Shown one piece after another: positions 4,978 to 26,727 of a stretch of DNA of 46,601 nucleotides (position 1 is the first letter of the stretch; each line of letters begins with the position of its first letter). A program made the position numbers and the translations under genes. Below the pieces are notes generated by a model. It had not been told where the DNA came from and ran no database searches. It worked only from the letters and a program-made list of their open reading frames with translations. The stretch covers positions 1-46,601 of the forward strand of contig JACRIX010000069.1 in assembly GCA_016215645.1 (NCBI GenBank), read 5' to 3'. This DNA is from Rhodocyclales bacterium. Lineage in GTDB: Bacteria; Pseudomonadota; Gammaproteobacteria; Burkholderiales; Rhodocyclaceae.

Positions 4978-6205
4978 AGGCCTCCGGCGGCGCGCCGGGC
5001 TGGCCCTTGCACTGCTCGCCGTCCTGGCATCCGCCGGCGCCGATGTCGGCATCGAACTCAGCGCCGAGGAGCTCGACCGTATCGCTTCTCATGGCCCGTG
5101 GCCTCTCCCCTGGTCGGCTGATCCCGGAAATCGCGTTTCGGGCAATGCCGCGGCGATCTTTCTCGGCCACGGCCTGTTTTTCGACGAGGCGTTGTCGGCG
5201 AACGGCAAAGTCGCCTGCGCCACCTGCCACAATCCGGCGCGCGGATTCCAGGACAGCCGCAACGTAGCGAAGGGCCTGGCTCCGGGCACGCGCAATACCC
5301 CGGGCCTGTTCAATGTGCGGCACCAGCGCTGGTTCGGCTGGGACGGTGCCCATGACAACCTCTGGTCGTCCAGCCTCAGACCGATCCTCGATCCCGGCGA
5401 GATGGGTGGCAGCGCCGCGCGCAGTGCCCGCCGGCTGAAGGCATCGCCAGCGCTGCACTGCCATTACCGCGCAGCCTTCGGCAAGCCCGCCATGGCGGAC
5501 GATCCGGAACTGCTGGTCAATCTCGCCAAGGGCATCGCCGCCTGGCAGGAAACGCTGGTTTCGCCACCGGCCCCGTTTGATCGCTTTCGCGACGCGCTGG
5601 CGCGCAAGGATGCCTCGACCGCCGCCGAGTACCCTCCGGCAGCGCGTCGCGGATTGCGCCTCTTCCTCGGACGTGGGCAGTGCGCCACCTGTCACGCCGG
5701 CCCGATGTTCAGCAACGGCGAATTCGGCGACATCGGCATACCCTTCTTCGTCAAGCCGGGCGGTGTAGATCCGGGACGCCAGGGCGGCATCAAGCGCGTG
5801 CAGTCCAATCCCTACAATCTGCTCGGTGCCTTCAACGATGACGTCACGCGCGAGAACGCCACCGGGACGCGACACCTGCGCCCAGAGCACCGCAACTTCG
5901 GGGAATTCAAGGTACCCAGTCTGCGTAATCTGAGGCTGACTGCGCCCTACATGCACAATGGCAGCATCGCCAGCTTGCACGATGTCGTGCGCCACTATTC
6001 GGAATTGAATGAAGACCGACTGCACAGCGATGGCGAGCGCATACTCAAACCACTGGGTCTCACCGCTGCCGAAAGCAAGGATCTGGTCGCGTTTCTGGAG
6101 TCGCTGTCGCCAACCGAACCGATATCGGTCGCTGTCAAACCAATGCCGATTCGAGACTGCCTGCCAGCGACCCGAAACTCACGCATCCCCGCCGCAGGTC
6201 GTTGA
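4958..6205 (+). CDS. Di-haem cytochrome c peroxidase/MauG-family protein
   Basis: 415 residues, exported (signal peptide about residues 10-28). Two c-type haem motifs are present, CATCHN (N-terminal domain) and CATCHAG (C-terminal domain), with the family's flanking GHGLFFDEALS, NTPGLFN, GRGQCATCHAGPMFSNGEF and PSLRNLRLTAPYMHNGS segments. Bacterial cytochrome c peroxidases reduce peroxide in the periplasm, while MauG and MbnH relatives oxidise residues in partner proteins. The PYMHNG segment keeps a methionine where MauG has its tyrosine ligand, which favours a peroxidase-like C-terminal haem. Translation start lies inside the preceding YtkA-like gene. The tail after the domain (about 20 residues) is unstructured. 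Confidence 0.88.
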   Translation: MTSRRTKGLRRRAGLALALLAVLASAGADVGIELSAEELDRIASHGPWPLPWSADPGNRVSGNAAAIFLGHGLFFDEALSANGKVACATCHNPARGFQDSRNVAKGLAPGTRNTPGLFNVRHQRWFGWDGAHDNLWSSSLRPILDPGEMGGSAARSARRLKASPALHCHYRAAFGKPAMADDPELLVNLAKGIAAWQETLVSPPAPFDRFRDALARKDASTAAEYPPAARRGLRLFLGRGQCATCHAGPMFSNGEFGDIGIPFFVKPGGVDPGRQGGIKRVQSNPYNLLGAFNDDVTRENATGTRHLRPEHRNFGEFKVPSLRNLRLTAPYMHNGSIASLHDVVRHYSELNEDRLHSDGERILKPLGLTAAESKDLVAFLESLSPTEPISVAVKPMPIRDCLPATRNSRIPAAGR

Positions 6206-6661: not shown

Positions 6662-7465
6662 TCAGCCGAAGCGACCCGTGATGTAATCCTCGGTCGCCTT
6701 CTTCTGCGGCTTGATGAAAATCTGATCGGTAACGCCGAACTCGACCATCTCGCCCAGGTACATGTAGCCGGTGAAATCAGAAATGCGCGCGGCCTGCTGC
6801 ATGTTGTGCGTGACGATGAGGATGGTGACCTTTTCCTTGAGTTCGGTGATCAGTTCCTCGATGCTGGCCGTGGCGATCGGATCGAGCGCGGAGGTCGGTT
6901 CATCGAACAGGATGATTTCCGGATCGGACGCCAGGGCGCGCGCGATGCAGAGGCGCTGCTGCTGGCCGCCGGACAGGTTGGCGCCGAGTTCCTTGAGGCG
7001 GTTGCTGACCTCGTTCCAAAGGGCGGCACCTTTCAACGCCGATTCGACGCGGTCGTCGAGTTCATTCTTGTTGCTCATGCCACGCACCCGCAGACTGTAG
7101 GCGACGTTCTCGTAGATCGATTTGGGAAAAGGATTGGGCTTCTGGAACACCATGCTGATGCGCATGCGCACTTCGATGGGATCGACCCCGGGCGCCAGCA
7201 AATTGGTGTCGTCGGGATACAGCACGATGCCGCCACCAGCATAGCGGTTGCCGGGATACAAGTCGTGCATGCGGTTGAAACAGCGCAGCAGGGTCGATTT
7301 GCCGCAACCCGAAGGCCCGATCAGCGCTGTGACCCGGTGATCGTAGATCGGCATCGACACCCGCTTCAGCGCATGGAAGGCACCGTAGTAGAAGTCCAGG
7401 TCGCGCACATCGGCCTTGAGCAGGGCGCCCTCGACGCCCGCCTCCAATCCGGTTTGAATTTGCAT
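6662..7465 (-). CDS. pstB: Phosphate ABC transporter ATP-binding protein PstB
   Basis: 267 residues from the ATG at 7465 (in-frame GTG codons at 7477 and 7474 are alternatives that overlap the pstA stop). Walker A is GPSGCGKST, the signature is LSGGQQQR, Walker B is [14 protein letters not shown] and the switch histidine is in VTHNM. The NRM-x-DLYPGNRY stretch after Walker A is typical of PstB. It powers high-affinity phosphate uptake through PstA/PstC and, in PHO systems, takes part in phosphate signalling to PhoR. It follows pstA directly. Confidence 0.96.
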
Positions 7466-7470
7466 GGGGT

Positions 7471-8397
7471 TCACCACTTGATGTTTTTGCGCAAACGATA
7501 GCGCACGTAGATGGCCAGACCGTTCATGGCCAGGGTCATGAAAACCAGGACAAAGCCCGCCGCCGCCGCATTGATGGAAAAGGCCGCCTCGGGACGCGAG
7601 GTCCAGTTGAACATCTGGATCGGCATCACCGTGAAGGGAGCGAAGATCCAGTCGAACAGACCAGCCGGCGGATCGCCGGAAAAAGGCGCGGTCGGCAGGA
7701 AGGCGATGAAGGTCAGCGCGCCGATGGTAATGATAGGTGCCGTCTCGCCGATCGCGCGCGCCATGCCGATGATCACGCCGGTCAGGATGCCAGCACTCGA
7801 ATACGGCAGGATGTGGTCACTGACCGTCTGCCAGGTGGTCGCGCCGCAGGCGTAGGAACCCTCGTGGATGGACTGCGGGATGGCGCGGATGGCCTCGCGC
7901 GTGGCGACGATGATCACCGGCAGGATCAGCAGCGCCAGGGTCAGGCCCGCGGAAAGGACGCTCTGGCCGAAACCGAAGTAATACACGAACAGGCCGAGGG
8001 CCAGCAGGCCATAGACGATGGAAGGAATGCCGGCCAGGTTGCTGATGTTGATTTCGATGATGTCGGTGATCCAGTTTTTCGGTGCGTATTCTTCAAGGTA
8101 GACGCCGGCGGCGACGCCCAGCGGCACCGCAGACAATGCCGTCACCAGCATCACCAGCACGGTGCCGACCCAAGCCGAGAGGATGCCGGCATGCTCCGCC
8201 CGGCGCGAGGGAAACGAGGTGAAGAAGTCCATGCTCAGTCGCGGCACGCCCTGGATCGCCATGTCGACAAACAACACGGTAAAGGTGAGGACACCCACCA
8301 TCAACGACAGGATGCCGAGCAGGGAGAAGAACAGGTCCCAGCGCTTGGCGCGCGTGATGATGGCGCGGATGGCGGCCAGGTCAGCGGGTTTCAACAT
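7471..8397 (-). CDS. pstA: Phosphate ABC transporter permease PstA
   Basis: 308 residues with six membrane spans. The inner-membrane permease signature for docking with the ATPase is seen in [29 protein letters not shown]. The [14 protein letters not shown] motif is typical of PstA. It starts one base after the pstC stop, and its stop touches pstB. With PstC it forms the phosphate channel of the Pst transporter. Confidence 0.96.
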
Positions 8398-8398
8398 A

Positions 8399-9352
8399 TC
8401 AATAGACCTCGCGGAAGCGCTTGCGCAGCCAGTAGCCGAGCAGGTTGAAGGCCAGCGTCATCAGCAACAGCGTCAGGCCGGCGGCGAAGATCGTCTGGTA
8501 GCCGATCGAGCCGTGCGGCAGGTCGCCCAGCGCCACCTGCACGATATAGGACGTGATGGTCGCACCCGGCTCGGTCGGATTGAAGGTCAGGTTGGGCTGC
8601 ATGCCAGCGGCGACGGCAAGGATCATGGTCTCGCCGACGGCGCGCGAAATACCGAGGATGTAGGCCGACGCGATGCCTGAGGTCGCCGCCGGCGTCACCA
8701 CCCAGAGCGCCGTCTGCAAGCGCGTCGCGCCCATGGCATAGGATCCCTCGCGCAGGGCCATCGGCACGGCGCGCATGGCGTCTTCCGATAGCGATGCAAC
8801 GTAGGGAATGATCATGATGCCCATGACGAGCCCGGCGGAGAGCAGGTTGAATCCGGGCAAGTCGGGGTAGATCTTCTGCAGGATCGGCGTCAGGAAGGTC
8901 AGGGCGAAGTAGCCATAGACGATGGTCGGCACGCCGCCCAGCAGTTCGAGGAAGGGTTTGGCGATTTCGCGCACCTTGAAGCCGGCGAACTCGGACAGGT
9001 AGATCGCGATGATGGTACCCAGCGGGATGGCCACCAGCAGGGCGACGGCGGAACTGGTCAGCGTGCCGGAGAGCAGTACCATGATGCCGTAATGGGCGTC
9101 GTCGAACAGCGGCGTCCATTGCGTGTCGAAGAGGAAATCCGACAGCGGCACGGTCTCGAAGAACACCCAGGATTCCTTGACCAGCACATAGACGATGGCA
9201 ATGGTAACGAATACCGAAAACGCCGCCGCACTGAACAGCAGGCCCTCGATGATGCGCTCCTTGACGTGGCGCGAGGCCTTCTTGCTCAGCCGGTCGCTGA
9301 TACCACTGCCGAGCGGCCGCGGTTGGGAAGACAGGGTTGCGCTAGCGGTCAT
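8399..9352 (-). CDS. pstC: Phosphate ABC transporter permease PstC
   Basis: 317 residues with an extended N-terminus and six membrane spans. The ATPase-docking loop is in REGSYAMGATRLQTALWVVTPAATSGIASA and the GISRAVGETMILAVAAG motif identifies PstC. It is separated from pstS by about 110 bases that contain a hairpin, and from pstA by one base. Inner-membrane partner of PstA. Confidence 0.96.
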   Translation of the reverse strand: MTASATLSSQPRPLGSGISDRLSKKASRHVKERIIEGLLFSAAAFSVFVTIAIVYVLVKESWVFFETVPLSDFLFDTQWTPLFDDAHYGIMVLLSGTLTSSAVALLVAIPLGTIIAIYLSEFAGFKVREIAKPFLELLGGVPTIVYGYFALTFLTPILQKIYPDLPGFNLLSAGLVMGIMIIPYVASLSEDAMRAVPMALREGSYAMGATRLQTALWVVTPAATSGIASAYILGISRAVGETMILAVAAGMQPNLTFNPTEPGATITSYIVQVALGDLPHGSIGYQTIFAAGLTLLLMTLAFNLLGYWLRKRFREVY

Positions 9353-9462: not shown

Positions 9463-10449
<987 letters not shown>

Positions 10450-10488: not shown

Positions 10489-10522
10489 AGTCTAGGCAGC
10501 GAATGTTACAAACAGGTGAAAC
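10489..10522 (-). promoter_or_regulatory. PHO-box promoter of pstS
   Basis: On the minus strand the order is GTTTCAC-CTGT-TTGTAAC (10522 down to 10505), then exactly 10 bases, then TAGACT (10494-10489) as the -10. Two half-sites on an 11-bp pitch, 10 bp before a -10 and with no -35, is the known layout of PhoB-activated promoters. The start point would fall near 10482, giving a leader of about 33 bases with a good ribosome site. The half-sites are imperfect matches to CTGTCAT/CTGTAAC. Confidence 0.65.
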
Positions 10523-10548
10523 CTGGTCGGCCAATCCGTCCGGTCAGC

Positions 10549-10582
10549 GATTCATCGACGCGTAACACGGAGCGACTAGGCT
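10549..10582 (+). promoter_or_regulatory. PHO-box promoter of the olsA operon
   Basis: GATTCAT (10549-10555), 4 bases, GCGTAAC (10560-10566), then 10 bases and TAGGCT (10577-10582) as the -10. This mirrors the pstS promoter 27 bases away on the other strand. Only 6 bases separate the -10 from the olsA ATG at 10589, so transcription would begin at or beside the start codon, giving a leaderless message. The first half-site is weak (4 of 7), so confidence comes mostly from the spacing. Confidence 0.5.
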
Positions 10583-10588
10583 CCGGCA

Positions 10589-11386
10589 ATGCCTGCCGTT
10601 TCCCCATCCGCCACCCTGCGCCTGATTCGGGTCGGGCTCCACCTGCTCGCCGGTGGCGTTCAGATCGCCCTTCTGTTCCCGCTTGCGGGACCCCCATGGC
10701 GAGATTCGCTCAAGCGCCGCTGGTCGCGCCAGCTGCTGCGTTTGCTGTTGATCGAAATCGAGGCAGTGGAGCCGGCACTCCTGGGATTGGACAACGGACT
10801 GCTGGTCGCCAACCATGTGTCGTTTGTCGACATCTTCGCGATCAACGCTCTGCTCCCCGCCGGCTTTGTCGCCAAAAGCGACGTCGCCGGTTGGCCCCTG
10901 ATCGGCTGGATGAGCCGCCACAACGACACGGTATTCATTGAACGTGGCAGTCGCAAGGCGGCGCATCACACCCAGCAACAAATGCTGTCGATTCTCGCTT
11001 CAGGCCGACGTCTGGCGATATTTCCCGAGGGCACCACCACTGCCGGCGAAGGCGTGCTTCCCTTTCACGGCGCCTTGTTTCAAGCTGCCATCGACGCCGG
11101 CGCCTCTGTAACCGCGCTGGCCATCGAATACGTCGATGCCAAGGGCTGCCTGACCGCGGCCCCGGCATACATAGGTGATGTCAGCCTTCTCGATTGCCTG
11201 CTGAACATCATCGGCAGCAACGGCATACGGGTCCGCATCACACTCGCGGCCCGATTCGCCCCTCCGCTCCAGGATCGCCGTCGGCTTGCCCATCACGCCC
11301 ATCAGGCCGTGGCCGCCGCGCTGCGAACACGTCGTAGCAGCGAACTGCCGAAATCCCTCCGTAACACTGCGGCAATCATCGCGTAA
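10589..11386 (+). CDS. olsA: Lysophospholipid/lyso-ornithine lipid acyltransferase (OlsA/PlsC family)
   Basis: 265 residues, PlsC-type acyltransferase. The catalytic H-x4-D is NHVSFVD (His76, Asp81) and the acceptor-binding motif is FPEGTTTAG. A hydrophobic N-terminal segment (about residues 10-35) would anchor it to the inner membrane. The family adds a second acyl chain to lysophosphatidate (PlsC) or to lyso-ornithine lipid (OlsA). The OlsB-type gene 49 bases downstream favours OlsA: OlsB would make 3-hydroxyacyl-ornithine and OlsA would complete the lipid. First gene of a long operon divergent from pstS and under a likely PHO promoter. No ribosome site is seen, in keeping with a leaderless transcript. 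Confidence 0.78.
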   Translation: MPAVSPSATLRLIRVGLHLLAGGVQIALLFPLAGPPWRDSLKRRWSRQLLRLLLIEIEAVEPALLGLDNGLLVANHVSFVDIFAINALLPAGFVAKSDVAGWPLIGWMSRHNDTVFIERGSRKAAHHTQQQMLSILASGRRLAIFPEGTTTAGEGVLPFHGALFQAAIDAGASVTALAIEYVDAKGCLTAAPAYIGDVSLLDCLLNIIGSNGIRVRITLAARFAPPLQDRRRLAHHAHQAVAAALRTRRSSELPKSLRNTAAIIA

Positions 11387-11435
11387 CGCCACCCCCCAAC
11401 AATGCAGGCGAACCCAGAGAAAAAAGGAGAACGCC

Positions 11436-12224
11436 ATGCAAAGCAAAATACAGAACATCCACCAGACCCCGACGCCGGCACCGGCATCACGCACTACCTA
11501 TCGCGTCACCCTGGCGCGCAGCGAGGAAGAGGTCCTCGAAGCCCAGCGCCTGCGCTACAAGGTCTTCGTCGAAGAACTCGGTGCCCACATACCTACCCGC
11601 CTGCCCGACCACGACATTGATCACTATGACCGCTTCTGCGAGCACCTGATCGTGCGCGATACCGACTCCGAGCGCATCGTCGGCACCTATCGCATCCTCC
11701 CGCCGTCGGCGGCGCGCCGCGTGGGCAACTATTATTCGGAAAACGAGTTCCACATCAATCGGCTGCATCACCTGCGCAATCGCCTGGTGGAAGTCGGCCG
11801 CTCCTGCATCCACCCGGACCATCGCAGCGGCGCCGTGATCACCCTGCTTTGGGCCGGCCTGGCCGACTACATGGTGAGCAACAATTACGACCACCTGATC
11901 GGCTGCGCCTCGATCGGCATGGCCGACGGCGGCCACAATGCGGCCAATCTGTTCCTGCAAATCAGCCCGGAACACACGGCGCCGGCCGAATACCGGGTCT
12001 TCCCCCAGCACAGACTGCCCTTCGAGCGCCTGGCCAACGGACAGCCGGCACTGGTACCCCCGCTGATCAAGGGCTACTTGCGCGTCGGCGCCTGGATTTG
12101 CGGCGAACCGGCATGGGATCCGGACTTCAACACCGCCGATCTACTGATGTTGCTGCCGATGTCGCGCATGAACAAGCGCTACATGCGACACTTTTTGAAG
12201 AACACCGACAGCGCAGCGGCATGA
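11436..12224 (+). CDS. olsB: L-ornithine N-alpha-acyltransferase family protein (OlsB)
   Basis: 262 residues, GNAT-fold N-acyltransferase of the OlsB group. Typical blocks are LRYKVFVEELGA, the DHYDRFCEHLIVRD segment, IVGTYRILPP and VEVGRSCIHPDHRSG. OlsB transfers a 3-hydroxyacyl chain from acyl carrier protein to the alpha-amino group of ornithine, the first step of ornithine-lipid synthesis; related enzymes use glycine, lysine or glutamine, so the amino acid is not certain. AAAAAGGAG gives a strong ribosome site. The stop overlaps the next start (ATGA). Ornithine lipids replace phospholipids under phosphate limitation in several proteobacteria, which fits the location beside pst. Confidence 0.85.
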   Translation: MQSKIQNIHQTPTPAPASRTTYRVTLARSEEEVLEAQRLRYKVFVEELGAHIPTRLPDHDIDHYDRFCEHLIVRDTDSERIVGTYRILPPSAARRVGNYYSENEFHINRLHHLRNRLVEVGRSCIHPDHRSGAVITLLWAGLADYMVSNNYDHLIGCASIGMADGGHNAANLFLQISPEHTAPAEYRVFPQHRLPFERLANGQPALVPPLIKGYLRVGAWICGEPAWDPDFNTADLLMLLPMSRMNKRYMRHFLKNTDSAAA

Positions 12225-13513
12225 TCAGGCAAGACCGGTTGCTTCGACAGACTCAGCCGGTGGATGCCATCGCACAGAAACCATACCCGGCGCGTCGCCT
12301 CAAGGTCCTGATGGTCAGCGATGTCTGCCATCCTCGCGTCAACGGCGTCTCCACCTCCATCGAAACTTTCTCCGGCGCCCTGTCCCGTCTCGGCCTGCGC
12401 ATCACGCTGGTAGCACCCGACTATCCGGGCGCCAATCCGGCCGTTGACACGGCCGCCGCCAGTTGCGCCGACGTCCTGCGCATCCCATCACGCGCCGTAC
12501 CCTTCGACCCGGAGGACAGGCTGATGCACTGGGGCGATCTGGCGGCCCTCGATCGCCGTCTTGCCAGCGCCGACTTTGACCTGGTCCATGTGCAGACGCC
12601 GTTTGCCGCCCACTATGCCGGGATGCGTTTCGCGCGCAAGCGCGGCATTCCCTGCGTGGCGACCTACCACACGCATTTCGAGGAATACCTCTTCCACTAC
12701 ATCCGTATCCTGCCGCGCGCCGTCTTGCGCCTGGCCTCACGCGGCCTGGCGAGGCACCAATGCAACAGCCTCGACGCCGTGGTGGTGCCCTCGAATCCGA
12801 TGGCCGAAACCTTGCAAAGCTATGGCGTTTCAGTACCACTTCACGTCATCCCCACCGGTCTGCCGGACAGTCAGTTCCTTCGCGGCAACGGCGCCCGCTT
12901 TCGCCAGCACTGGGGTATTGCACCGACGCGCAAGATTGCCCTCTTCGTTGGACGCGCCGCATTCGAAAAGAGCATCGATTTCCTGCTCGACGTCATCACC
13001 ATTGCACGGCGCAAGCTACCGCACCTGATGCTGGTGGTCGCCGGCGAAGGGCCGGCCCTCGCCGCATTGCGCAGGCAAGCCGAGGCCTTGCGCATCGACG
13101 ATCACGTTCGCTTCGTTGGCTACCTGCCGCGCCATGATGGGCTGCGGGATTGCTACGCCGCGGCCGACATATTCACCTTTGCATCGAAAACCGAAACCCA
13201 GGGCCTGGTGCTGCTGGAAGCCATGGCAATCGGCTTGCCGGTACTTGCCATCCCCGCACTGGGAGCGGCGGAAATCATCAATCCGGCGTGCGGCGCCTTG
13301 CCCGGCGCCGATACCCCGGCCGCCTTTGCATCACAGCTCGTTGAACTGCTCGGCGCCCCGGATCGACTTGCCGCCATGTCCGGGGAAGCGATCCGCTTTG
13401 CGCGCCAATGGGATGCCGGTTCCCAGGCGGTACGGCTGGCCTCGCTCTACCGATCGCTGTTACGCACACCGGTCGCCGCAATTGGTCAGCAAACCGTGGC
13501 CGCACCCCGATGA
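12221..13513 (+). CDS. GT4-family glycosyltransferase, probable diacylglycerol glycosyltransferase
   Basis: 430 residues with a GT-B fold. The N-terminal domain begins after about 28 residues with KVLMVSDVCHPRVNGVSTSIETF; HTHFEEYLFHYI is a block seen in bacterial 1,2-diacylglycerol glucosyltransferases. The C-terminal nucleotide-sugar domain has GRAAFEKSIDFLL, AGEGPAL and the E-x7-E motif in TETQGLVLLEAMAIGLPV. It would transfer a sugar from a nucleotide donor to a lipid acceptor at the inner membrane. The acceptor call rests on the neighbours (olsAB, dgkA, plcP-type gene) as well as on the HTHFEEY block. Overlaps olsB by 4 bases and dgkA by 4 bases. Confidence 0.75.
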   Translation: MIRQDRLLRQTQPVDAIAQKPYPARRLKVLMVSDVCHPRVNGVSTSIETFSGALSRLGLRITLVAPDYPGANPAVDTAAASCADVLRIPSRAVPFDPEDRLMHWGDLAALDRRLASADFDLVHVQTPFAAHYAGMRFARKRGIPCVATYHTHFEEYLFHYIRILPRAVLRLASRGLARHQCNSLDAVVVPSNPMAETLQSYGVSVPLHVIPTGLPDSQFLRGNGARFRQHWGIAPTRKIALFVGRAAFEKSIDFLLDVITIARRKLPHLMLVVAGEGPALAALRRQAEALRIDDHVRFVGYLPRHDGLRDCYAAADIFTFASKTETQGLVLLEAMAIGLPVLAIPALGAAEIINPACGALPGADTPAAFASQLVELLGAPDRLAAMSGEAIRFARQWDAGSQAVRLASLYRSLLRTPVAAIGQQTVAAPR

Positions 13514-13896
13514 GCCACGAACCGGCCATCGAAGAGAGCCCCTTCAAAGGCCAGACGGGCCTGCGCCGCGTCTGGAACGCACTCAACTATTCACTGTCCG
13601 GATTGCGCGCGGCGTATCGCAACGAGGATGCGTTCCGCCAGGAGACCCTGCTTGCCTCGCTGATGATTCCTCTGGCCCTGGTGCTGCCGACCGGCGGAAT
13701 CGGCAAGGCGATCATGATCAGCAGCGTGCTGCTGGTGCTGGTTGTTGAATTGCTCAACTCGGCGGTCGAGGCTGCGGTGGATCGCATATCCCTTGCCCAT
13801 CACCGGCTTTCCAAACGCGCCAAGGATATCGGCAGCGCCGCGGTACTGATCGCGCTGATCAATGTAGTCGTGACCTGGGCCCTGGTACTGATCTGA
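13510..13896 (+). CDS. dgkA: Diacylglycerol kinase DgkA
   Basis: 128 residues, three-span integral membrane kinase. Family motifs are present: RAAYRNEDAFRQE near the N-terminus, the catalytic VELLNSAVEAAVDR, and SKRAKDIGSAAVLI. It phosphorylates diacylglycerol to phosphatidate with ATP, returning diacylglycerol to phospholipid synthesis. It lies between two lipid-type glycosyltransferase genes and upstream of a phospholipase-type gene, so it competes with them for diacylglycerol. Start overlaps the preceding stop by 4 bases; the next gene begins one base after its stop. Confidence 0.93.
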   Translation: MSHEPAIEESPFKGQTGLRRVWNALNYSLSGLRAAYRNEDAFRQETLLASLMIPLALVLPTGGIGKAIMISSVLLVLVVELLNSAVEAAVDRISLAHHRLSKRAKDIGSAAVLIALINVVVTWALVLI

Positions 13897-13897
13897 A

Positions 13898-15088
13898 ATG
13901 GGCGATTCGCTGCATATCGCCGTCGTCAGCGAAACCTTTGCTCCCGAAGTCAATGGTGTGGCCATGACGCTCGGCCACGTGGTCGCCGGCCTGCACGCTC
14001 GCGGCCATCGGATTAGCCTGGTGCGACCACGGCAATCCGCCGAAGATTGCAGCACCTACGAGACCGGATTTCAAACCCTGCTGGTCCGAGGATTGCCAAT
14101 CCCGGGCTATCCAGGCTTGCGCTTCGGACTGCCGGCGGCACGCACACTTAAACGCCGGTGGCGGGATGATCGTCCCGATGTCGTTCAGGTGGTAACCGAG
14201 GGTCCGCTCGGCGCGTCGGCGGTCGGCGCGGCTCGGGCGCTGGGCATTCCCGTGGTCACCGAGTTTCATACAAATTTCCACGCCTACAGCCACCACTACG
14301 GGTTCGGCAATCTGGAGCGTCTGGTTTCGCTGCACCTGCGCCGCCTGCACAATCGTGGCGACCTGACCGTCGTGCCATCGCATCAACTCGGGATCGACCT
14401 GCTGCGCCGCGGCTACAACAACATCCGCGTGGTGGCCCGCGGTGTCGATACCGCACTGTTCAACCCGGGCCGACGCAGCGCAGAACTACGGGCCAGGTGG
14501 GGGACGAAAGGCGAGGATATCGTTGTTGCCTGCGTAGGCCGACTGGCACCGGAGAAAAACCTCGACCTGGCAATGACTACCTTTGCCGCGATTCGGCGTT
14601 TCGCACCCGGTGCGCGACTGCTCATGGTCGGTGACGGACCCGCCCGGAAACCCTTGGAGCGCGCCTATCCAGAACACATTTATGCCGGAACGCGTCATGG
14701 CGAGGATCTGGCGGCGCACTATGCTTCGGCGGACCTGTTCCTGTTTCCCAGCCTGACCGAAACCTACGGCAATGTGACACTGGAGGCAATGGCCAGCGGA
14801 CTGCCCGTGGTGGCCTTCCGCCTGGCGGCAGCGGCCGAATTGATTCATCACGGGCACAACGGCATGCTCGCCGAGCCGGGAGTGAATGCCGCTTTCGTTC
14901 GATCCGCCCTCGATTTGATTACCCGGCCGGGAACACGCTCGCGTATTTCGGCATGTGCGGCGGAAAGTGTCGCTACCCACGACTGGGAACGCATCCACGA
15001 ACGCATGGCGTGCGTGCTGCGAGAAGCCGTCCGGCGAACCAAGGTGCAGGCCGCCAACGGCCCAGCCTTCCATCTCATGCCGGATTAG
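13898..15088 (+). CDS. GT4-family glycosyltransferase, Agt-like glycolipid synthase candidate
   Basis: 396 residues, GT-B fold. The N-terminus is IAVVSETFAPEVNGVAMTL, followed by HTNFHAYSHHYG, GRLAPEKNLDLAM, GDGPARK and the E-x7-E motif in TETYGNVTLEAMASGLPV. The gene sits 8 bases before the PlcP-type gene. In other proteobacteria a GT4 enzyme (Agt) encoded beside plcP makes monoglucosyl- or glucuronosyl-diacylglycerol during phosphate starvation; the pairing here suggests the same. Which sugar is used cannot be read from the sequence. It is only a distant relative of the other glycosyltransferase in this operon and not a recent duplicate. Confidence 0.72.
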   Translation: MGDSLHIAVVSETFAPEVNGVAMTLGHVVAGLHARGHRISLVRPRQSAEDCSTYETGFQTLLVRGLPIPGYPGLRFGLPAARTLKRRWRDDRPDVVQVVTEGPLGASAVGAARALGIPVVTEFHTNFHAYSHHYGFGNLERLVSLHLRRLHNRGDLTVVPSHQLGIDLLRRGYNNIRVVARGVDTALFNPGRRSAELRARWGTKGEDIVVACVGRLAPEKNLDLAMTTFAAIRRFAPGARLLMVGDGPARKPLERAYPEHIYAGTRHGEDLAAHYASADLFLFPSLTETYGNVTLEAMASGLPVVAFRLAAAAELIHHGHNGMLAEPGVNAAFVRSALDLITRPGTRSRISACAAESVATHDWERIHERMACVLREAVRRTKVQAANGPAFHLMPD

Positions 15089-15096
15089 GTGCGCCA

Positions 15097-15954
15097 ATGC
15101 ATGTCCGCTCAATTTTCATTTCCGACGTACATCTGGGCACCCGCGGCTGCCAGGCCGACCGATTGCTGGATTTTCTGCGCGACTATGAGAGCGAGCACCT
15201 CTACCTGATCGGAGACATCATCGACTTCTGGTCGATGAATCGGGGCATCCACTGGACATCCGCCCAGAACACGGTGGTGCAGAAGATACTGCGCAGGGCG
15301 CGCCACGGCCAGAAGGTAATGCTGATTCCCGGCAACCACGACGAAGCGATGCGCGAGTATGACGGCATTTTGTTCGGCGATATCCTGGTGAAGCGAGAGC
15401 ACGTCCATGTCACCGCCACCGGCCAGCGCTTTCTGCTGCTGCATGGTGACGAATTCGACCAGGTGACACGCTACCACCGCTGGCTGGCGATCATCGGTGA
15501 CGTCGGCTATGACCTGCTGGTGCGCCTCAATGCCGTGCTCTCGCGAGTGCGCCGCGCCCTGCGGCGCCCAGGCTACTGGTCGCTGGCCGGCTATGCCAAG
15601 ACACGCGTGAAACGCGCGGTCTCGTTCATTTTTGACTTCGAGGACTCGGTTATCCATGCGGTGCGCGACCGCGGACTCGACGGCGTAATCTGCGGACACA
15701 TCCACAATGCAGCGCTGCGCCGGGTCGACGGCATCACCTACATCAACTGTGGCGACTGGGTCGATAGCTGCACCGCCATCGTTGAACACCTTGACGGCGA
15801 ACTTGAACTGATCCGGGCGTGGCACCCCGTGGCCAGTTCCGTCACCAGCGATCCCGCGACACGCCCGATCACGTCTTCCGTCAGCCCGTTGCCTCAAGCC
15901 GGTCCCGGCCTGGCCTCCAGCCAAATTGAGCGTGCGGTTGCCATACGCCGGTAA
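15097..15954 (+). CDS. plcP: PlcP-type metallophosphoesterase (phospholipase C-like)
   Basis: 285 residues with all calcineurin-type metal motifs: ISDVHLG (Asp10, His12), GDIIDFW (Asp40), GNHDE (Asn80, His81), LLHGDEFD and GHIHN. It is often annotated as UDP-2,3-diacylglucosamine diphosphatase (LpxH). However, LGTRGCQADRLLDFL, YWSLAGYAKTRVKRAVSFI and ITYINCGDWVDSCTAIVEH are, as I recall the family, typical of PlcP, which removes head groups from phospholipids to give diacylglycerol under phosphate stress. The Agt-like gene just upstream and the PHO setting agree. The C-terminal 35 residues are a low-complexity tail. LpxH activity is the main alternative. Confidence 0.72.
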   Translation: MHVRSIFISDVHLGTRGCQADRLLDFLRDYESEHLYLIGDIIDFWSMNRGIHWTSAQNTVVQKILRRARHGQKVMLIPGNHDEAMREYDGILFGDILVKREHVHVTATGQRFLLLHGDEFDQVTRYHRWLAIIGDVGYDLLVRLNAVLSRVRRALRRPGYWSLAGYAKTRVKRAVSFIFDFEDSVIHAVRDRGLDGVICGHIHNAALRRVDGITYINCGDWVDSCTAIVEHLDGELELIRAWHPVASSVTSDPATRPITSSVSPLPQAGPGLASSQIERAVAIRR

Positions 15955-15971
15955 CAATTCATGCATCTTGA
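15938..15971 (+). promoter_or_regulatory. Possible PHO-box promoter before the CYTH-CHAD gene
   Basis: TTGCCAT (15938-15944), 4 bases, CGGTAAC (15949-15955), overlapping the end of plcP. The half-sites fit (5 of 7 and 6 of 7), but the hexamer 10 bases on, TCTTGA (15966-15971), is a poor -10. If active it would support the downstream start at 16012 over the ATG at 15961. Confidence 0.3.
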
Positions 15972-16011
15972 GAAGATAGCCTCCGACCGATCGACTACCG
16001 GTTTCGACTCC

Positions 16012-17529
16012 ATGCAGCACCAAATCGCCCTCAAGCTGGCTGTCGCCGAAGACCGACATTCAGCGTTGCAGCGACATCCGCTACTGGCGGGCGCTGGCGC
16101 TCGCGAACAACAGAACCTGGTCAGCGTGTACTACGACACGGGGCGCCTGGCGCTGCGGCGCGAAGGTCTCCTGTTGCGCCTGCGGCGCCAGGGGGCTTCA
16201 TGGATTCAGACGATAAAGCGCCAGAGCGAATCGGGCAGCGGATTGACCATCCGGCCGGAATGGCAGGCGCCCTACCTGAATCATTTCGACTTCATGCAGG
16301 TTGACGACGCGGAACTCCGTGACTGGCTGCAGCAGGAAAAGATAGCCAGCCGGATAGCCTCGGTGTTTGAAACCAAATTCCGACGCACCAGCTGGCATAT
16401 CGAGCGCACCCACGGGGTACGAATCCTGGCCAAGCTGGATCGCGGCTGGATCGCGTCCGACGGGCGCCGCGAAGCCCTTTCCGAGCTGGAATTGCAGTTG
16501 TTGTCGGGCACGTTTGACAACCTTTACGAGGTCGCCCTGGAGCTGGCCCGCAATCAGTCCCTGCCGCCACTGCCGCTGTCGAAGGCGGAACGAGGCTACC
16601 GACTGTTTCGGAACACGCCACGGCGACCCGTGCGGGCCTCCGAAATCGATGTTCGAAAACTGCAGACACCTCTGGCGGCCTTTCGTCTCATTGCCCTGGA
16701 TTGCCTGAGCCACCTTCAATCGAACCATGCCGGAGCGAGCGACGCCGACGATCCGGAATATGTGCACCAGATGCGGGTTGCCACGCGTCGCCTGCGTGCC
16801 GCATTGCGCATGTTTCGTCCGGTATTGCCTGCGGGCCTTGAAGACACGCTGGCCGGTCCATTGCGCGACCTGATGAACAGCCTCGGTCAAGCCCGTGACC
16901 TTGACGTGCTGGTCGCCGAGATCGTCAGTCCCGTGGTCCGAGCGATACCCGATGACCCGCGTTTGACTGATCTGGCCGGCGCCATCACCAATCGCCAATA
17001 TGCAGTGCGAAACGCCATACGTCACGCACTCAAGCAGCCGGCGTACGGCCGGCTACTGCTGACGGCCAGCCAACTCTTGCATCAGTCGCCGTTCATCGAT
17101 CTGCCCACTCCCAAAGACGATGCGCCTGCCCTTTTGCCGTTTGCCGATCGTCGCCTGCGCAGGCTGCTGCGGCGGATCCATGAGCTCGCGGAATCGGTGC
17201 GCGTGGAACACCCGCCAACGCTGCACGAATTGCGCATCGCGATCAAGCGCCTGCGTTATGCCGTCGAGTTCTTCGGCGCGGCAATTCCCGGCAAAACGGG
17301 AAGCACCGTGGTCAAGCGACTATCCGGACTGCAGGAAGAACTCGGGCAGCTGAACGATTTGTCCAGTGCCGGCAACATGCTGATGGTCTGCGCCGGTCGC
17401 GAGCAGCACCTGCGCGAAGCAGTGACTTTGATCGGCGGCTGGCACGGCCAGCGCCATGCGGCACTGCTGGCGGCGATACCGGACCACCTGGAAACCGTGC
17501 GCGGCCTGAAGCTGCCCAAACTCTTGTAG
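16012..17529 (+). CDS. CYTH-CHAD domain protein with a degenerate CYTH signature
   Basis: 505 residues from the ATG at 16012; an upstream in-frame ATG at 15961 would add 17 residues, but the CYTH domain begins right at residue 4. CYTH (about 1-205) normally opens with ExExK; here it reads QIALK, so both metal-binding glutamates are missing, although later Arg/Lys/Glu positions such as LLLRLRRQ, TIKRQ and ELELQL remain. CHAD (about 215-500) has two histidine/arginine-rich helices, VHQMRVATRRLRAALRMF and LHELRIAIKRLRYAVEFF. CYTH enzymes split inorganic triphosphate; CHAD domains bind polyphosphate. Loss of the glutamates suggests a binding or regulatory role. End of the olsA operon. Confidence 0.85.
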   Translation: MQHQIALKLAVAEDRHSALQRHPLLAGAGAREQQNLVSVYYDTGRLALRREGLLLRLRRQGASWIQTIKRQSESGSGLTIRPEWQAPYLNHFDFMQVDDAELRDWLQQEKIASRIASVFETKFRRTSWHIERTHGVRILAKLDRGWIASDGRREALSELELQLLSGTFDNLYEVALELARNQSLPPLPLSKAERGYRLFRNTPRRPVRASEIDVRKLQTPLAAFRLIALDCLSHLQSNHAGASDADDPEYVHQMRVATRRLRAALRMFRPVLPAGLEDTLAGPLRDLMNSLGQARDLDVLVAEIVSPVVRAIPDDPRLTDLAGAITNRQYAVRNAIRHALKQPAYGRLLLTASQLLHQSPFIDLPTPKDDAPALLPFADRRLRRLLRRIHELAESVRVEHPPTLHELRIAIKRLRYAVEFFGAAIPGKTGSTVVKRLSGLQEELGQLNDLSSAGNMLMVCAGREQHLREAVTLIGGWHGQRHAALLAAIPDHLETVRGLKLPKLL

Positions 17530-17584
17530 TGCCCGCTCATGGACAGGTTTGCGCGAATACCACACATTTCTTGATGTAGCAAAA

Positions 17585-17618
17585 CTGTAACAGGTCAGTA
17601 ACCTGGGTCCGGGATGAT
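17585..17618 (+). promoter_or_regulatory. PHO-box promoter of the porin gene
   Basis: CTGTAAC (17585-17591), 4 bases, CAGTAAC (17596-17602), then 10 bases and GATGAT (17613-17618) as a plausible -10. These are among the best half-sites in the window. The transcript would carry a leader of about 80 bases before the ATG at 17704. Confidence 0.65.
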
Positions 17619-17703: not shown

Positions 17704-18819
17704 ATGAAACACAAGCTATTGGCAATCGCTGTCGCCGGCATCTCTGGCGCCTCATTTGCCCAAACCAACGTCACCATCCAGGGCGCCTTCGATTCCGGCG
17801 TGCAGATGTTCAGCACGGAAACTGCCGGTGTCAAAACCCGCACCAATCGCTGGGGATCGTCGAGCAATTCCACCACGTCGAACATTACCTTTGTCGTTAC
17901 CGAGGACCTCGGCGGTGGCATGAAGGCCGGCCTGTTCCTCAAGACCGACCCGACTGCGGGAACTGCAAACGCTGCTGCCAGCCTGTGGAACAGCCAAAAC
18001 TATCTTTGGGTCTCCGGCGGCTTCGGCAAGGTTTCGCTCGGCTTCATGGACAACTTTGCCAATACGACGGCAACCACCGCGCAACCCTATGGCACCGCCA
18101 TGGGCGGCGGCTGGTCGAGTGCCTTCGGTCGCCTGAACGGAGTCGGCACCTCGTCCGCCGGCGCCGTGGCAAACGTCGCCGTCGCAACCGCAGCGACGGC
18201 GGGCACCTTCGCCGGTGCCCGCGACATCCGCGTTAACAACTCCATCAAGTGGGACAGCCCCAACTGGTCGGGTTTCACCGCCGGATTGCTCTATCGGGCG
18301 CCCAACTCGGGTAGCGGCAACGCCGCAGCAGATGCCGACGGCCAGACCCAGGTCGGCATGAACTACAACAATGGGCCCTTGAACCTTTCCTACACCCATT
18401 CCAACTTCATGACCAACGTCGCCAGCCTGAACAAGGGCGTCGCCACCCACAACCTGCTGGCTGCCAACTACAAGTTCGGCGACGTAACGATGTACGGTGG
18501 CTGGACGTCATCCAAGGCAACGGGGAACGGTGCCGTTGCCGGCGCCACGGCTTCGGTCGACGCACGCTCATGGAACGTCGCGCTGAAGTGGCAGGCAACG
18601 GCAACGATGGCCATAATGGCCAACGTCCTGCGCTCGGACGACAAGCTGATCGCCGACCAGGATCGCTCGCTGAACTCGCTCGGCCTGGACTACGCACTGA
18701 GCAAGCGCACCGTAGCCTATGCGCGCTGGGAAGGCGGCGACAACGACAAGTCAGTCACCACCGGAGCCAGCGGCGGGAAATTCAACCGCACCGCGTTGGG
18801 CCTGCGTCACAGCTTTTGA
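17704..18819 (+). CDS. Outer-membrane porin, betaproteobacterial type
   Basis: 371 residues. Signal peptide of 19 residues (cleavage at SFA-QTNVT), start of the first strand as NVTIQGAFDSGVQ, an NITFVVTEDLGGGMKAGLFLKT block typical of the Gram-negative porin family, and the closing aromatic LGLRHSF needed for outer-membrane assembly. It should form a trimeric 16-strand channel. The loops are unusually rich in Ala, Gly, Ser and Thr (about residues 145-175). A strong PHO box upstream suggests it is made in phosphate shortage, like PhoE or OprP, although the family differs. A terminator follows, so it is monocistronic. Confidence 0.9.
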   Translation: MKHKLLAIAVAGISGASFAQTNVTIQGAFDSGVQMFSTETAGVKTRTNRWGSSSNSTTSNITFVVTEDLGGGMKAGLFLKTDPTAGTANAAASLWNSQNYLWVSGGFGKVSLGFMDNFANTTATTAQPYGTAMGGGWSSAFGRLNGVGTSSAGAVANVAVATAATAGTFAGARDIRVNNSIKWDSPNWSGFTAGLLYRAPNSGSGNAAADADGQTQVGMNYNNGPLNLSYTHSNFMTNVASLNKGVATHNLLAANYKFGDVTMYGGWTSSKATGNGAVAGATASVDARSWNVALKWQATATMAIMANVLRSDDKLIADQDRSLNSLGLDYALSKRTVAYARWEGGDNDKSVTTGASGGKFNRTALGLRHSF

Positions 18820-18864
18820 TTTCCCGCTCCACGTCGGCGCAATGCCGACGTTTTGCATAGCCTG

Positions 18865-18890
18865 GGCCACTCTTCGGAGTGGCCTTTTTT
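18865..18890 (+). terminator. Rho-independent terminator of the porin gene
   Basis: Perfect 8-bp stem GGCCACTC/GAGTGGCC with a TTCG loop, followed by six T. It ends the porin transcript 46 bases after the stop. The 177 bases from here to the next gene contain no recognisable gene. Confidence 0.95.
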
Positions 18891-19067: not shown

Positions 19068-20876
19068 ATGACCCCGTCACGGCGACCACCGGGCGTCACC
19101 GCCCGTTGGCTTGAAAACTACTTTGGTATCCCTGCAATGAGTCACGGAATAGATGAGCTCGCGCAATCGAAAGAGGACGACCCACGGTCGGAGGATGTCC
19201 ACGAGGCAGCCCCCATCGCCGCGGATGTGCTTAGCCAATGTAGGCCCGTCGATGCCCGCGCAAAGACCATCGACGTCATGCAGCGCTTCTTCGCCGAACC
19301 GAGCCTGAGCAGCCTTCCGGTGATTGACGAGGCCAACGGACGCCCGGTGGGACTGATCAATCAGGCGATGTTCCTGAGCGATCTGGCCAAGCCCTTCCAC
19401 AAGGAAGTCTATTCGAACAGAAGTTGCCGCAGCCTGATGGATCGGTCACCGATCATCGTCGATATACAGGAACCGCTGGCCGAGGTGTCAGCGCGACTCG
19501 CCGAATCCAGGTCGAAAGGAACGGCAGACGGATTCATCATCATTTCCGGCGGCCGCTACCAGGGCATCGGACGCACCCAGGACGTGCTGCGAATCATGGC
19601 CGAGACGCATCGGCTGCACTCGCAACGAATCGCGATGAGTCGTGACCGGCTGGAAGAAATGGTGCGCATCCGCACCCGGGCGTTGACGGATGCGCGAGAC
19701 GCCGCCAACGCGGCCAACGTTGCAAAAAGCGCCTTCCTCGCCAACATGAGTCATGAAATCCGGACGCCGATGAACGGCATACTCGGCATGGCCCATCTGA
19801 TGCGGCGTGGCGGAGTTTCCCTCAAACAGGCGGAACGCCTGGACACCATCGAAAAGTCCGGCCTGCACCTGCTGGCGGTCATCAACAACATCCTCGATAT
19901 CTCCAAGATCGAGGCACGGAAGATTGTCCTCGAAGAAACGCCAATGAGCGTCTCCGGTGTGCTCGACAACGTCAGGTCCATGCTCATGGAGCAGGCCCTG
20001 GAAAAGAACCTCGATCTCATGCTGGACCTGGGAGCGTTGCCGGAACCCCTGAGCGGCGACCCGACCCGTCTACAGCAAGCGGTCCTCAACTTCGCCAGCA
20101 ACGCCATCAAATTTACCGACCAGGGCTCCGTCACCCTGCGTGCGTTCGAACTTGCGCAAACCACCGACAGCGTGCTGGTGCGCATCGAGGTTCAGGACAC
20201 GGGCATCGGCATCGCCGCCGAGGCGATTCCGAGGCTGTTCAACGCCTTTGAACAAGCCGACAACTCGACGACGCGCAAATATGGAGGCACCGGGCTCGGC
20301 CTGGTAATCTCGCGCCGCCTTGCGGAAATGATGGGAGGTGAAACCGGCGTGGTCAGTCATGTCGGCCGCGGCAGCACCTTCTGGCTTACCGTACGCCTGA
20401 AGCGGCTATCGCCGGCCGACGAAAGCACTCTGCGCCCTGCCGGCGTCGGCAATACGGAGGCCGAATTGAAGCGACTGCACAGCGGCAAGCGTGTCATGGT
20501 GGCCGACGATGAACCAATCAACCGGATGGTGGCGCGGATTCAACTGGAGGATATCGGCTTCGCGGTAGACACCGCTGAAAACGGCGCCGAAGCGGTAGCC
20601 CTGGCGCTGACAACATCCTACGCAGCGATATTCATGGACATGCAGATGCCGGAGGTCGATGGCCTTGAAGCCACCCGGCGAATTCGCGCGATTCCCCTGC
20701 ACAGGCACACGGCAATCATCGCCATGACAGCCAATGTGTTCGCCGAGGATCGGGCCCGTTGCTTTCATTCGGGAATGGATGATTTCCTGATGAAGCCGAT
20801 TTCCCCGGAAACGCTCTTCGGAATGCTCTTGAAGAGACTTGGACGGCAGGAAGCCCCGGCCACCCGAGTGGCGTGA
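19068..20876 (+). CDS. Hybrid sensor histidine kinase with CBS pair and receiver domain
   Basis: 602 residues from the ATG at 19068; an ATG at 19137 is an alternative since the first 23 residues look non-domain. Order: two CBS repeats (about 50-180), a coiled linker, a HisKA domain with [14 protein letters not shown] (phospho-acceptor His229), an ATPase domain ([22 protein letters not shown]), and a receiver (DDEP, phospho-acceptor Asp524 in [10 protein letters not shown], then MTAN and KP). No membrane span is seen, so it is cytosolic. CBS pairs usually sense adenine nucleotides, which suggests an energy or nucleotide signal. No separate response regulator gene is adjacent. Lies in the PHO island but no PHO box was seen before it. 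Confidence 0.9.
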
Positions 20877-23001: not shown

Positions 23002-23127
23002 ATGAATCACCACCTCTCACGCCATTCCATTTTTGTCCTCGGAAACACCCTGATCTGGGGAATCATTGAGGTGATCGCGCTGTTCCGCTCGCGCTCGGAG
23101 AACACTCGCCACCCGCAGCAGCGGTGA
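23002..23127 (+). CDS. Possible 41-residue single-span membrane protein upstream of phoX
   Basis: ATG at 23002 with AGAGGA 6 bases upstream. The peptide has a basic N-terminus, one hydrophobic segment (about residues 9-28, IFVLGNTLIWGIIEVIALF) and a charged tail, the layout of a small inner-membrane protein. It is 46 bases after the 29-residue ORF and on the same putative PHO transcript. No name can be given. Confidence 0.5.
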   Translation: MNHHLSRHSIFVLGNTLIWGIIEVIALFRSRSENTRHPQQR

Positions 23128-23131
23128 TCGA

Positions 23132-23241: not shown

Positions 23242-23283
23242 GGGGGGTATTGAGCATTGATTCGACCAAGGACAACCAAAGCA

Positions 23284-26700: not shown

Positions 26701-26727
26701 GTAGCCCTTGATGAATTGGAGGGGCAT

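Follow-up and report, generated by a model that had tools for sequence, protein, structure and literature searches.

The stretch of DNA analysed here (the window, 46,601 nucleotides of one contig from a Rhodocyclales bacterium) carries what is likely a phosphorus-sparing island of the Pho regulon, in which ornithine lipid would be made and phospholipid converted into glycolipid through diacylglycerol. Most of its components are known, but the arrangement as a whole looks new. We infer its regulation, enzyme reactions and lipid products, as well as the roles of DgkA and of the CYTH/CHAD protein, from known families.

Architecture and predicted Pho control

The phosphate uptake genes pstSCAB and a seven-gene run, olsA-olsB-GT1-dgkA-GT2-plcP-CYTH/CHAD, diverge from a single gap, which the ATG of pstS at 10449 and the ATG of olsA at 10589 set at 139 bp; pstC, pstA and pstB come after pstS. 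Open reading frames and family assignments bear out this back-to-back layout, which the initial annotation had described, together with its overlapping or very close genes: the olsB/GT1 and GT1/dgkA junctions are ATGA overlaps, and spacings of 1 bp and 8 bp separate dgkA from GT2 and GT2 from plcP. Such overlapping start and stop codons suggest a single transcript. Downstream of the run lies a porin gene with Pho-box-like repeats of its own. The features are as follows.

6662..7477 (-): pstB, phosphate ABC transporter ATPase (ORF, homology and the conserved pstS-C-A-B order in the closest loci)
7471..8397 (-): pstA (ORF; tblastn 93-97% in L032-L034, L092-L094, L096 and L097)
8399..9352 (-): pstC (ORF; tblastn 94-98% in the same loci as pstA)
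9463..10449 (-): pstS, phosphate-binding protein (TIGR02136, 308.7 bits, cut-off 206.6)
10489..10494 (-): candidate -10 hexamer of pstS (TAGACT), 10 bp after the Pho-box-like site, similar in relatives
10505..10522 (-): Pho-box-like site towards pstS, GTTTCACCTGTTTGTAAC (matrix score 20.7, the window's best; conserved in relatives)
10549..10566 (+): Pho-box-like site towards olsA, GATTCATCGACGCGTAAC (matrix score 12.4, fifth of 93,168 positions)
10577..10582 (+): candidate -10 hexamer of the olsA run (TAGGCT), 10 bp after the Pho-box-like site
10589..11386 (+): olsA, lyso-ornithine lipid O-acyltransferase-like (PF01553, 81.9 bits)
11436..12224 (+): olsB, ornithine N-acyltransferase-like (PF13444, 126.8 bits)
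12221..13513 (+): GT1, GT4-family glycosyltransferase of its own clade (Pfam; tree)
13510..13896 (+): dgkA, prokaryotic diacylglycerol kinase (PF01219, 114.4 bits, cut-off 22.3)
13898..15088 (+): GT2, GT4-family glycosyltransferase of its own clade (Pfam; tree)
15097..15954 (+): plcP, intracellular phospholipase C-type metallophosphoesterase (PF00149, 46.9 bits)
15961..17529 (+): CYTH-CHAD protein (PF05235, 191.5 bits; PF01928, 53 bits)
17574..17602 (+): tandem Pho-box-like repeats preceding the porin (matrix scores 13.8 and 16.0, the window's fourth and third)
17704..18819 (+): porin, a separate unit of the same island (PF13609, 124.7 bits)
18864..18885 (+): terminator-like hairpin after the porin (9-pair stem and T run); such matches overall were at chance level (10 vs 8.8)

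Pho-box-like sites were scored over 93,168 window positions with a position weight matrix trained on the pstS promoters of relatives. The score of the olsA-side site was attained in 0.2% of 1000 shuffles. At a threshold of 12, chosen after the window's own 12.4 was known, sites were found in 55 of 181 distinct module runs, the corresponding figures being 9 of 669 for control ORFs and 0.5% for shuffles, and in 48 of 164 runs after removal of the training loci and those nearly identical to them; 43 of the 69 distinct plcP runs fell below it, including runs of L052, L062 and L079. Searches with a plain consensus (0 matches vs 2.6 expected) and a degenerate one (26 vs 24) gave nothing above chance, so that the signal is visible only with the relatives' matrix. 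The genome encodes PhoB (352 bits, cut-off 296), which, together with the predicted sites, places the locus in the putative Pho regulon. At low phosphate, phosphorylated PhoB would bind both predicted sites in the gap, switching on pstSCAB uptake in one direction and the seven-gene operon in the other.

Recurrence of the cluster among relatives

The seven-gene order is kept in L092, L094, L095, L096, L097 (the same locus as L033), L032 and L039, and as far as plcP in L034, where no CYTH/CHAD match was found within that stretch. In these eight distinct relatives (Sulfuritalea and kin) the olsA-side site scores at least 12 in six; the remaining two reach 10.9 and 11.8. All eight retain the ATGA overlap between GT1 and dgkA; the overlap between olsB and GT1 is ATGA in six, GTGA in L094 and missing in L039. 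A neighbourhood search for co-occurring olsAB, dgkA and plcP, proposed with the initial annotation, returned recurrent clustering: of 100 genomes from the same family that have both genes, 32 place olsB no more than 12 kb from plcP, against about 0.6% expected. In the closest relative, genes of betaine-lipid type, one btaA-like and one for a methyltransferase, occupy the slot held here by the porin, and no btaA-like gene was found in the window or in its draft genome.

Such clustering might be a mere neighbourhood of independently regulated Pho genes, with olsAB and GT1-dgkA-GT2-plcP as separate modules that need no joint membrane exchange. Gene orders are commonly shuffled in other genera, in 68 of the 100 genomes (some of them drafts) olsB and plcP are more than 12 kb apart or on different contigs, and in L093 pst and olsA-olsB are followed directly by glmM, with plcP not found in that genome. 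The start/stop overlaps kept at GT1/dgkA (8/8) and olsB/GT1 (7/8) argue against separate modules, however, and common Pho control would still link both functionally; we consider this explanation very unlikely. Given the conserved order, the sites on both sides of the gap, the recurrent ols/plcP/GT/dgkA clustering and the btaA-like gene in a close relative's island, the run beside pst is probably one Pho-controlled unit with one lane for aminolipid and another leading from phospholipid to glycolipid.

Predicted enzymes of the two lanes

For the aminolipid lane, Pfam matches and adjacency identify an OlsB GNAT acyltransferase beside a PlsC-like OlsA with the HX4D and FPEG motifs. The best NCBIfam models are indeed OlsA (124.7 bits) and OlsB (182 and 178 bits), yet the curated equivalog cut-offs of 300 for OlsA and of 320 and 350 for OlsB were missed by a wide margin, which lowers certainty but does not exclude the function, since the model names indicate narrow groups. 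In the draft genome olsB is the sole PF13444 match found, and other plsC-type genes exist. OlsB and OlsA would turn ornithine and acyl-ACP into ornithine lipid; according to the available text of PMC3972451, OlsBA use these substrates and not diacylglycerol. The two lanes would thus run in parallel, and the earlier proposal of one operon carrying out the whole exchange has to be qualified accordingly.

The glycolipid lane would begin with PlcP, which has the five metallophosphoesterase motifs, adjoins genes for non-phosphorus lipids under a predicted Pho box, and would cleave phospholipid headgroups to give diacylglycerol and a phosphoalcohol. Assignment of plcP as LpxH was rejected (51 bits vs a cut-off of 190), the true lpxH (222 bits) lying elsewhere in the genome. 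GT1 and GT2 would then attach sugars to diacylglycerol, or act on one another's product, yielding glycolipids free of phosphate. Both carry the EX7E motif, and their fold models (pLDDT 77 for GT1 and 88 for GT2) match GT4 structures. In a tree in which characterised Agt, Agt1 and Agt2 sequences are absent and the label boundary at L174 was set after an earlier result, GT1 (100/100) and GT2 (100/94) are separate from 23 plcP-following GTs of L174-L199, from other proteobacterial families. The initial label "Agt-type" is therefore not supported in that form: both enzymes are GT4, yet they form two clades outside the main plcP-linked Agt-like clade, and their products cannot be inferred from sequence. 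On these data GT1 and GT2 would represent two lipid glycosyltransferase clades that look new, although they may be orthologous to an Agt2-type enzyme without plcP linkage. GT1-like enzymes adjoin plcP outside the family in L172 and L173. An NDP-sugar dehydrogenase was not found at E <= 1e-40 in the module-bearing genome G001, so not every member can depend on glucuronate, unless a different route supplies it.

For both GTs the best NCBIfam model is the GpgS-type GlcN-PG synthase (NF053787; 112 bits for GT1, 148 for GT2), which raises the alternative that GT2 or both glycosylate phosphatidylglycerol, with phosphatidic acid from DgkA feeding PG synthesis, in a cluster that tunes membrane charge and saves no phosphorus. 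Several loci fit this. DgkA accompanies both GTs in 24 of the 29 loci that hold the two (60 loci fetched); dgkA and GT2 lie near olsAB in five loci without plcP (L138, L143, L150, L163 and L168); and L138, L161, L163 and L168 contain a gene that clusters with a PAP2 phosphatase of L163 (Pfam on the L163 member only). Moreover, in L105 pst diverges from GT1 and dgkA, with olsA, GT2 and olsB farther on, and PlcP was not found in the 2.3-Mb genome, indicating that the GTs can occur without it. On the other hand, the scores are far under the cut-off of 480, and a phospholipid-destroying plcP shares the run. The gpgSDF operon of P. aeruginosa (glucosaminyl-phosphatidylglycerol) likewise has a GT4 lipid glycosyltransferase, weakly echoed in the best NCBIfam model, but GpgS works together with deacetylase and flippase partners, as far as the accessible text of PMC12713373 goes, and the window's run has neither gene. 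We regard glycosylation of phosphatidylglycerol as improbable.

DgkA recycles diacylglycerol, and on the preferred phosphorus-sparing reading it would convert surplus diacylglycerol into phosphatidic acid. The protein has the ExxNSAVExxVD motif of prokaryotic DgkA, and its gene is the only copy found in the draft genome. A role in controlling diacylglycerol flow is plausible; it is less likely that DgkA, instead of acting as an overflow valve, serves in biosynthesis, or is simply a diacylglycerol kinase for general use in the cell that has settled in the cluster. Of 17 genomes selected for the search, 6 yielded no PF01219 gene besides the module dgkA, so that this copy must do any housekeeping there. 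Canonical DgkA (>117 bits) occurs in G003 and G010, where PlcP was not found, and, away from the module, in G005, G026, G060, G113 and the genomes of L100 and L104; DgkA is thus not tied to PlcP. Against this, dgkA often adjoins the GTs (24/29 loci), the close relative L093, in which plcP was not found, has only a divergent 73-bit DgkA copy (one draft genome), and recycling fits a surplus driven by PlcP. A further, doubtful reading takes GT1-DgkA-GT2 as an undescribed enzyme unit of two non-Agt lipid GT families with DgkA as a working step: diacylglycerol would be split, one GT glycosylating it directly and the other using an acceptor made via phosphatidic acid, to yield glycolipids other than glucosyl- and glucuronosyl-diacylglycerols.

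The last protein of the run more likely starts at 16012 than at 15961, because it aligns with E. coli YgiF, a TTM-CHAD polyphosphatase, from there. It shares the order CYTH/TTM then CHAD with YgiF; the CHAD assignment (191.5 bits) agrees with matches to solved CHAD domains. Unlike in YgiF, both glutamates of the catalytic ExExK are replaced in the window protein (QIALK) and in 12 aligned relative rows (Q/N-I/L/V-A/S/V-L-K), and a YgiF-type polyphosphatase was accordingly rejected. The protein is probably not a lipid enzyme; with this motif missing, it is most likely to bind polyphosphate and leave it uncleaved.

Known systems and significance

Co-regulation of PlcP, DagK and OlsAB is not new. 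The consulted part of PMC5082522 reports that all four proteins increase at low phosphate in Pseudomonas putida, and that PlcP and OlsAB are absent from a phoBR mutant; in strain BIRD-1 olsAB (PPUBIRD1_0974-0975) and plcP (PPUBIRD1_1390) lie at separate loci, unlike in the window. Operons of plcP and agt under Pho boxes serve glycolipid synthesis (available portions of PMC8528852 and PMC4796936). Those of SAR11, Erythrobacter, Methylosinus and P. aeruginosa (PA3219-PA3218) resemble the window in having plcP beside a GT4 gene for converting diacylglycerol to glycolipid, and an upstream Pho box is described for P. aeruginosa and several marine clusters (PMC4796936, PMC8528852 and PMC9239053, likewise in part). 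The window differs from them in its two GTs of other clades flanking dgkA, the olsAB genes in the run and the divergent pst. In the Type 1 plcP-btaAB cluster of Phaeobacter MED193, plcP adjoins genes for phosphate-free diacylglycerol lipids; the L092 island has a btaA-like gene, unlike the window.

In the literature consulted, accounts of membrane lipid renovation concern marine bacteria, rhizobia, methanotrophs and Pseudomonas, whose genes for it are spread over several loci. Here, in a betaproteobacterial group with several members recorded from lakes and groundwater, a near-whole programme apparently sits in one Pho-controlled island. The source of the window is a lake-type bacterium. The locus highlights two lipid glycosyltransferase clades with DgkA as a frequent partner, and offers a compact, testable unit for studying how cells divide their diacylglycerol among glycolipid, betaine lipid and the way back to phospholipid. 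If GT1-DgkA-GT2 did prove to be an undescribed unit, Rhodocyclaceae and their relatives would remodel their low-phosphate membranes with glycolipids beyond those known.

The divergent locus and its occurrence in relatives

The divergent layout read in the initial annotation was borne out: from a 139-bp gap, the pst genes (pstB, pstA, pstC, pstS) extend leftward and olsA-olsB-GT1-dgkA-GT2-plcP-CYTH/CHAD rightward, GT1 and GT2 being two GT4-family glycosyltransferases. ATGA overlaps join olsB to GT1 and GT1 to dgkA, GT2 follows dgkA after 1 bp, and plcP follows GT2 after 8 bp. The window, contig C49, belongs to a 3.4-Mb draft genome with an estimated completeness of 79.6%; Sulfuritalea and further beta-proteobacterial genome bins are its closest named relatives. 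A gene for a MauG-like di-haem cytochrome c peroxidase (4958-6205) adjoins pstB.

The neighbourhood search in relatives that the initial annotation had proposed was run across 150 same-family genomes, with PlcP found in 104 and OlsB in 122. Both were present in 100 genomes and lay within 12 kb of each other in 32 of these, against about 0.6% predicted by chance for a genome size of roughly 3.8 Mb. Sixty of the 104 plcP loci were retrieved, for most genera a single locus and for some genera several; these carried GT1-like (n = 35), GT2-like (n = 37), DgkA (n = 27), OlsB (n = 19) and OlsA (n = 9) genes, with Pst genes at 55% identity or more in 13. Named loci selected by OlsB (the best 80 of at least 572 relatives, many of them interrupted by contig ends) contained OlsA in 69, DgkA in 30, GT2 in 23, and GT1 and PlcP in 11 each.

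All six lipid genes occurred in one stretch at 12 loci, representing 11 genomes (L033 and L097 come from the same one). The window's gene order recurred in eight distinct genomes: an uncultured beta proteobacterium (L092, with an OlsB 91% identical to that of the window), Sulfuritalea sp. (L094), S. hydrogenivorans sk43H (L096), and those of L032, L033/L097, L034, L039 and L095. The pst set beside the L095 run differs from the window's, and CYTH/CHAD had no match within the fetched stretch of L034. The GT1/dgkA ATGA overlap was present in all eight, and the olsB/GT1 overlap was ATGA in six, GTGA in L094 and absent in L039; with the start codon taken as the one nearest to the preceding stop, some junctions were wider, such as dgkA-GT2 in L032 (123 bp) and plcP-CYTH/CHAD in L092 (155 bp). 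A search for recurrent genes around the modules (the lipid genes of such runs in relatives) gave clusters to which loci beyond the Rhodocyclaceae module set contributed most; of nine proteins scanned, seven drawn from these neighbours, none resembled a further constant member.

Pho-box-like sites and the porin slot

In the window, the plain Pho-box consensus (CTGTCATNNNNCTGTCAT, three mismatches allowed) gave 0 matches against 2.56 expected, and a degenerate form 26 against 24. These untrained searches showed no excess and were replaced by an 18-position matrix built from 13 of the 16 pstS-side sites found; training excluded the window itself, L092 as near-identical to it and L033 as a duplicate.

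Pho-box-like sites and associated genes in the window (positions, strand where assigned, feature)
10505, minus: Pho-box-like site, pstS side; score 20.7, best of 93,168 window positions
10549, plus: Pho-box-like site, olsA side; score 12.4, fifth-best in the window
17574-17602, plus: tandem 11-bp Pho-box-like repeats before the porin; scores 16.0 (17585) and 13.8 (17574)
17704-18819: porin, the window's occupant of a slot shared with L092, preceded by the tandem repeats
26667-26684, plus: Pho-box-like site before the SixA-like histidine phosphatase gene; score 17.9, second-best in the window
26716-27180: SixA-like histidine phosphatase gene (PF00300)

Of 1000 shuffles, 0.2% reached the olsA-side score, and a -10-like hexamer (TAGACT, TAGGCT; read from the sequence) lies 10 bp beyond each gap site. 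The genome encodes PhoB (352 bits against a cut-off of 296), and sigma-70 and terminator scans of the window stayed near chance level. At a score of at least 12, a threshold set after the window had been seen, sites preceded 56 of 183 module runs over 140 loci (55/181 without duplicate upstream regions, and 48/164 after omitting 15 loci that were part of the training set or nearly identical to it), compared with 0.5% of shuffles and 9 of 669 other ORFs as controls. The olsA side reached this score in six of the eight same-order relatives, the others being L094 (10.9) and L095 (11.8), and 43 of 69 distinct plcP runs, among them those of L052, L062 and L079, fell below it. A gene for a 446-aa CorA-like transporter (25219-26559), whose MgtE_N match is below threshold, stands back to back with the SixA-like one and is preceded on its own strand by CTGTCATTTGGACGTAAC at 26615-26632. 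For two ORFs at 23017-25038 (298 and 366 aa), neither Pfam nor NCBIfam gave a match at E 0.001.

One slot is flanked on both sides by sequence shared between the window (17001-17523 and 19123-20671) and L092. The window's porin is possibly a phosphate-limitation porin forming a separate Pho unit. The L092 slot (12270-14811) holds, on the opposite strand, a 431-aa DUF3419 protein (389.6 bits), a SAM methyltransferase in the position of BtaB, and a gene resembling low-molecular-weight phosphatases. We take DUF3419 to be the BtaA family; betaine lipids, too, are diacylglycerol lipids free of phosphate. The btaA-like gene is preceded by CTGAAAY repeats spaced 11 bp apart, which scored 10.1 and 8.9, under the threshold. 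A DUF3419 protein was found in one of ten further genomes searched (G001); the nine with no such match include the window's own draft genome, which is about 80% complete. PMC4796936 describes btaAB beside plcP as a type 1 arrangement; the L092 island likewise has a btaA-like gene beside the run, whereas the window has a porin there. Together, the btaA-like gene and its neighbours in the L092 slot and this known arrangement support a reading, from gene content, of the region as a putative collecting place for phosphorus-sparing genes.

Enzymes of the run

The initial annotation had called the glycosyltransferases Agt-type, after the plcP-linked diacylglycerol glycosyltransferase, and this label was not supported by the tree comparison. 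GT1 and GT2 share 31.5% identity. In a tree of 77 sequences (the window's GT1 and GT2, 26 of 45 GT1-like and 26 of 55 GT2-like proteins, and 23 GTs encoded next to plcP in L174-L199; one row has an internal stop), GT1, GT2 and the plcP-adjacent GTs formed three well-supported groups, so that both window proteins stand apart from the third group, here represented by plcP neighbours. The group label line at L174 was drawn by us after the GT comparison. Among 28 further phylum-wide loci, a third-group GT lay beside plcP in 23, L172 and L173 had a GT1-like gene, and L177, L187 and L193 showed no GT beside plcP; the GT of L050, from the window's own family, also fell into the third group. GT1 or GT2 may still be kin of an Agt2-type enzyme encoded away from plcP. 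Fold models of GT1 and GT2 (mean pLDDT 77 and 88) had generic GT4 structural neighbours, and solved structures and the fold search, with generic matches only (MshA, BshA, PimB', WaaG), gave no clue to acceptor or donor. An NDP-sugar dehydrogenase was present in nine of ten genomes checked and not found in G001, which carries the full run; a glucuronate donor would thus be dispensable in some members unless another route exists.

PlcP was ruled out as a second LpxH by its 51 bits to the LpxH model against a cut-off of 190; a true LpxH (222 bits) is encoded on a different contig. OlsA and OlsB matched their own models best, yet well under the equivalog cut-offs. The genome has eight further PF01553 proteins, and OlsA therefore need not be a general PlsC.

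At its N terminus, the CYTH/CHAD protein (15961-17529) reads HQIALK where E. coli YgiF keeps an ExExK-type QEIELK, and both glutamates are also absent at those positions in 12 aligned relative rows, in which two genomes are represented twice and one row is incomplete. CHAD domains bind polyphosphate, according to PMC6537752; combined with the degenerate ExExK, this leads us to expect polyphosphate binding without hydrolysis. The aligned relatives could represent a non-catalytic polyphosphate-binding subfamily.

DgkA as a partner of the glycosyltransferases

DgkA was present in 24 of the 29 plcP loci (among the 60) carrying both GT1 and GT2. In a PF01219 census of 17 hand-chosen genomes, 11 had a single such gene, inside the module stretch in six (G000, G001, G023, G038, G101, G148) and outside it in five (G005, G010, G026, G060, G113). 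Canonical DgkA occurred in G003 and G010, where PlcP was not found, and outside the module in the genomes of L100 and L104; these genomes without a PlcP match and these non-module copies speak against canonical DgkA tracking the GT-plcP module. The same observations, with the outside copies of G005, G026, G060 and G113, raised the weight of an alternative that we still consider rather unlikely, in which DgkA in the run is a biosynthetic step or a general diacylglycerol kinase that settled in the cluster. At L093 (9167-12247), glmM comes immediately after pst, olsA and olsB, and the segment GT1-dgkA-GT2-plcP-CYTH/CHAD is missing; in this one draft genome of a close relative, PlcP was not found and DgkA was present as a divergent copy only (73 bits). 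L105 (2847-10714) joins pst, GT1, dgkA, olsA, GT2 and olsB in a single stretch, and PlcP was not found in its 2.3-Mb genome. From this pattern, DgkA is therefore a frequent partner of both GT1 and GT2, without a tie to PlcP.

Loci L138, L143, L150, L163 and L168, several of them assigned to Gallionellaceae, have olsA-olsB near dgkA and GT2, with L161 showing another order; plcP had no match in these six stretches. Members of one protein cluster lie in L138, L161, L163 and L168, the L163 member being a PAP2-type phosphatase (Pfam run on that member only).

PMC4796936, PMC8528852, PMC9239053, PMC3972451, PMC5082522 and PMC9804370 already describe operons joining plcP to agt or to btaAB, several of them preceded by Pho boxes, and Pho-controlled OlsBA. 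In P. putida BIRD-1, low phosphate raises a DagK protein together with PlcP and OlsAB (PMC5082522), and the partnership of these functions is therefore not new. In the open-access papers searched, we found no description of a single run beside pst that combines olsAB, plcP, dgkA and two GTs, the accessible parts of PMC11631085 and PMC13086504 included, and it is this joining that appears new here. The interest of the cluster lies in its compactness as a unit, in DgkA as a frequent partner, and in two unassigned GT clades.
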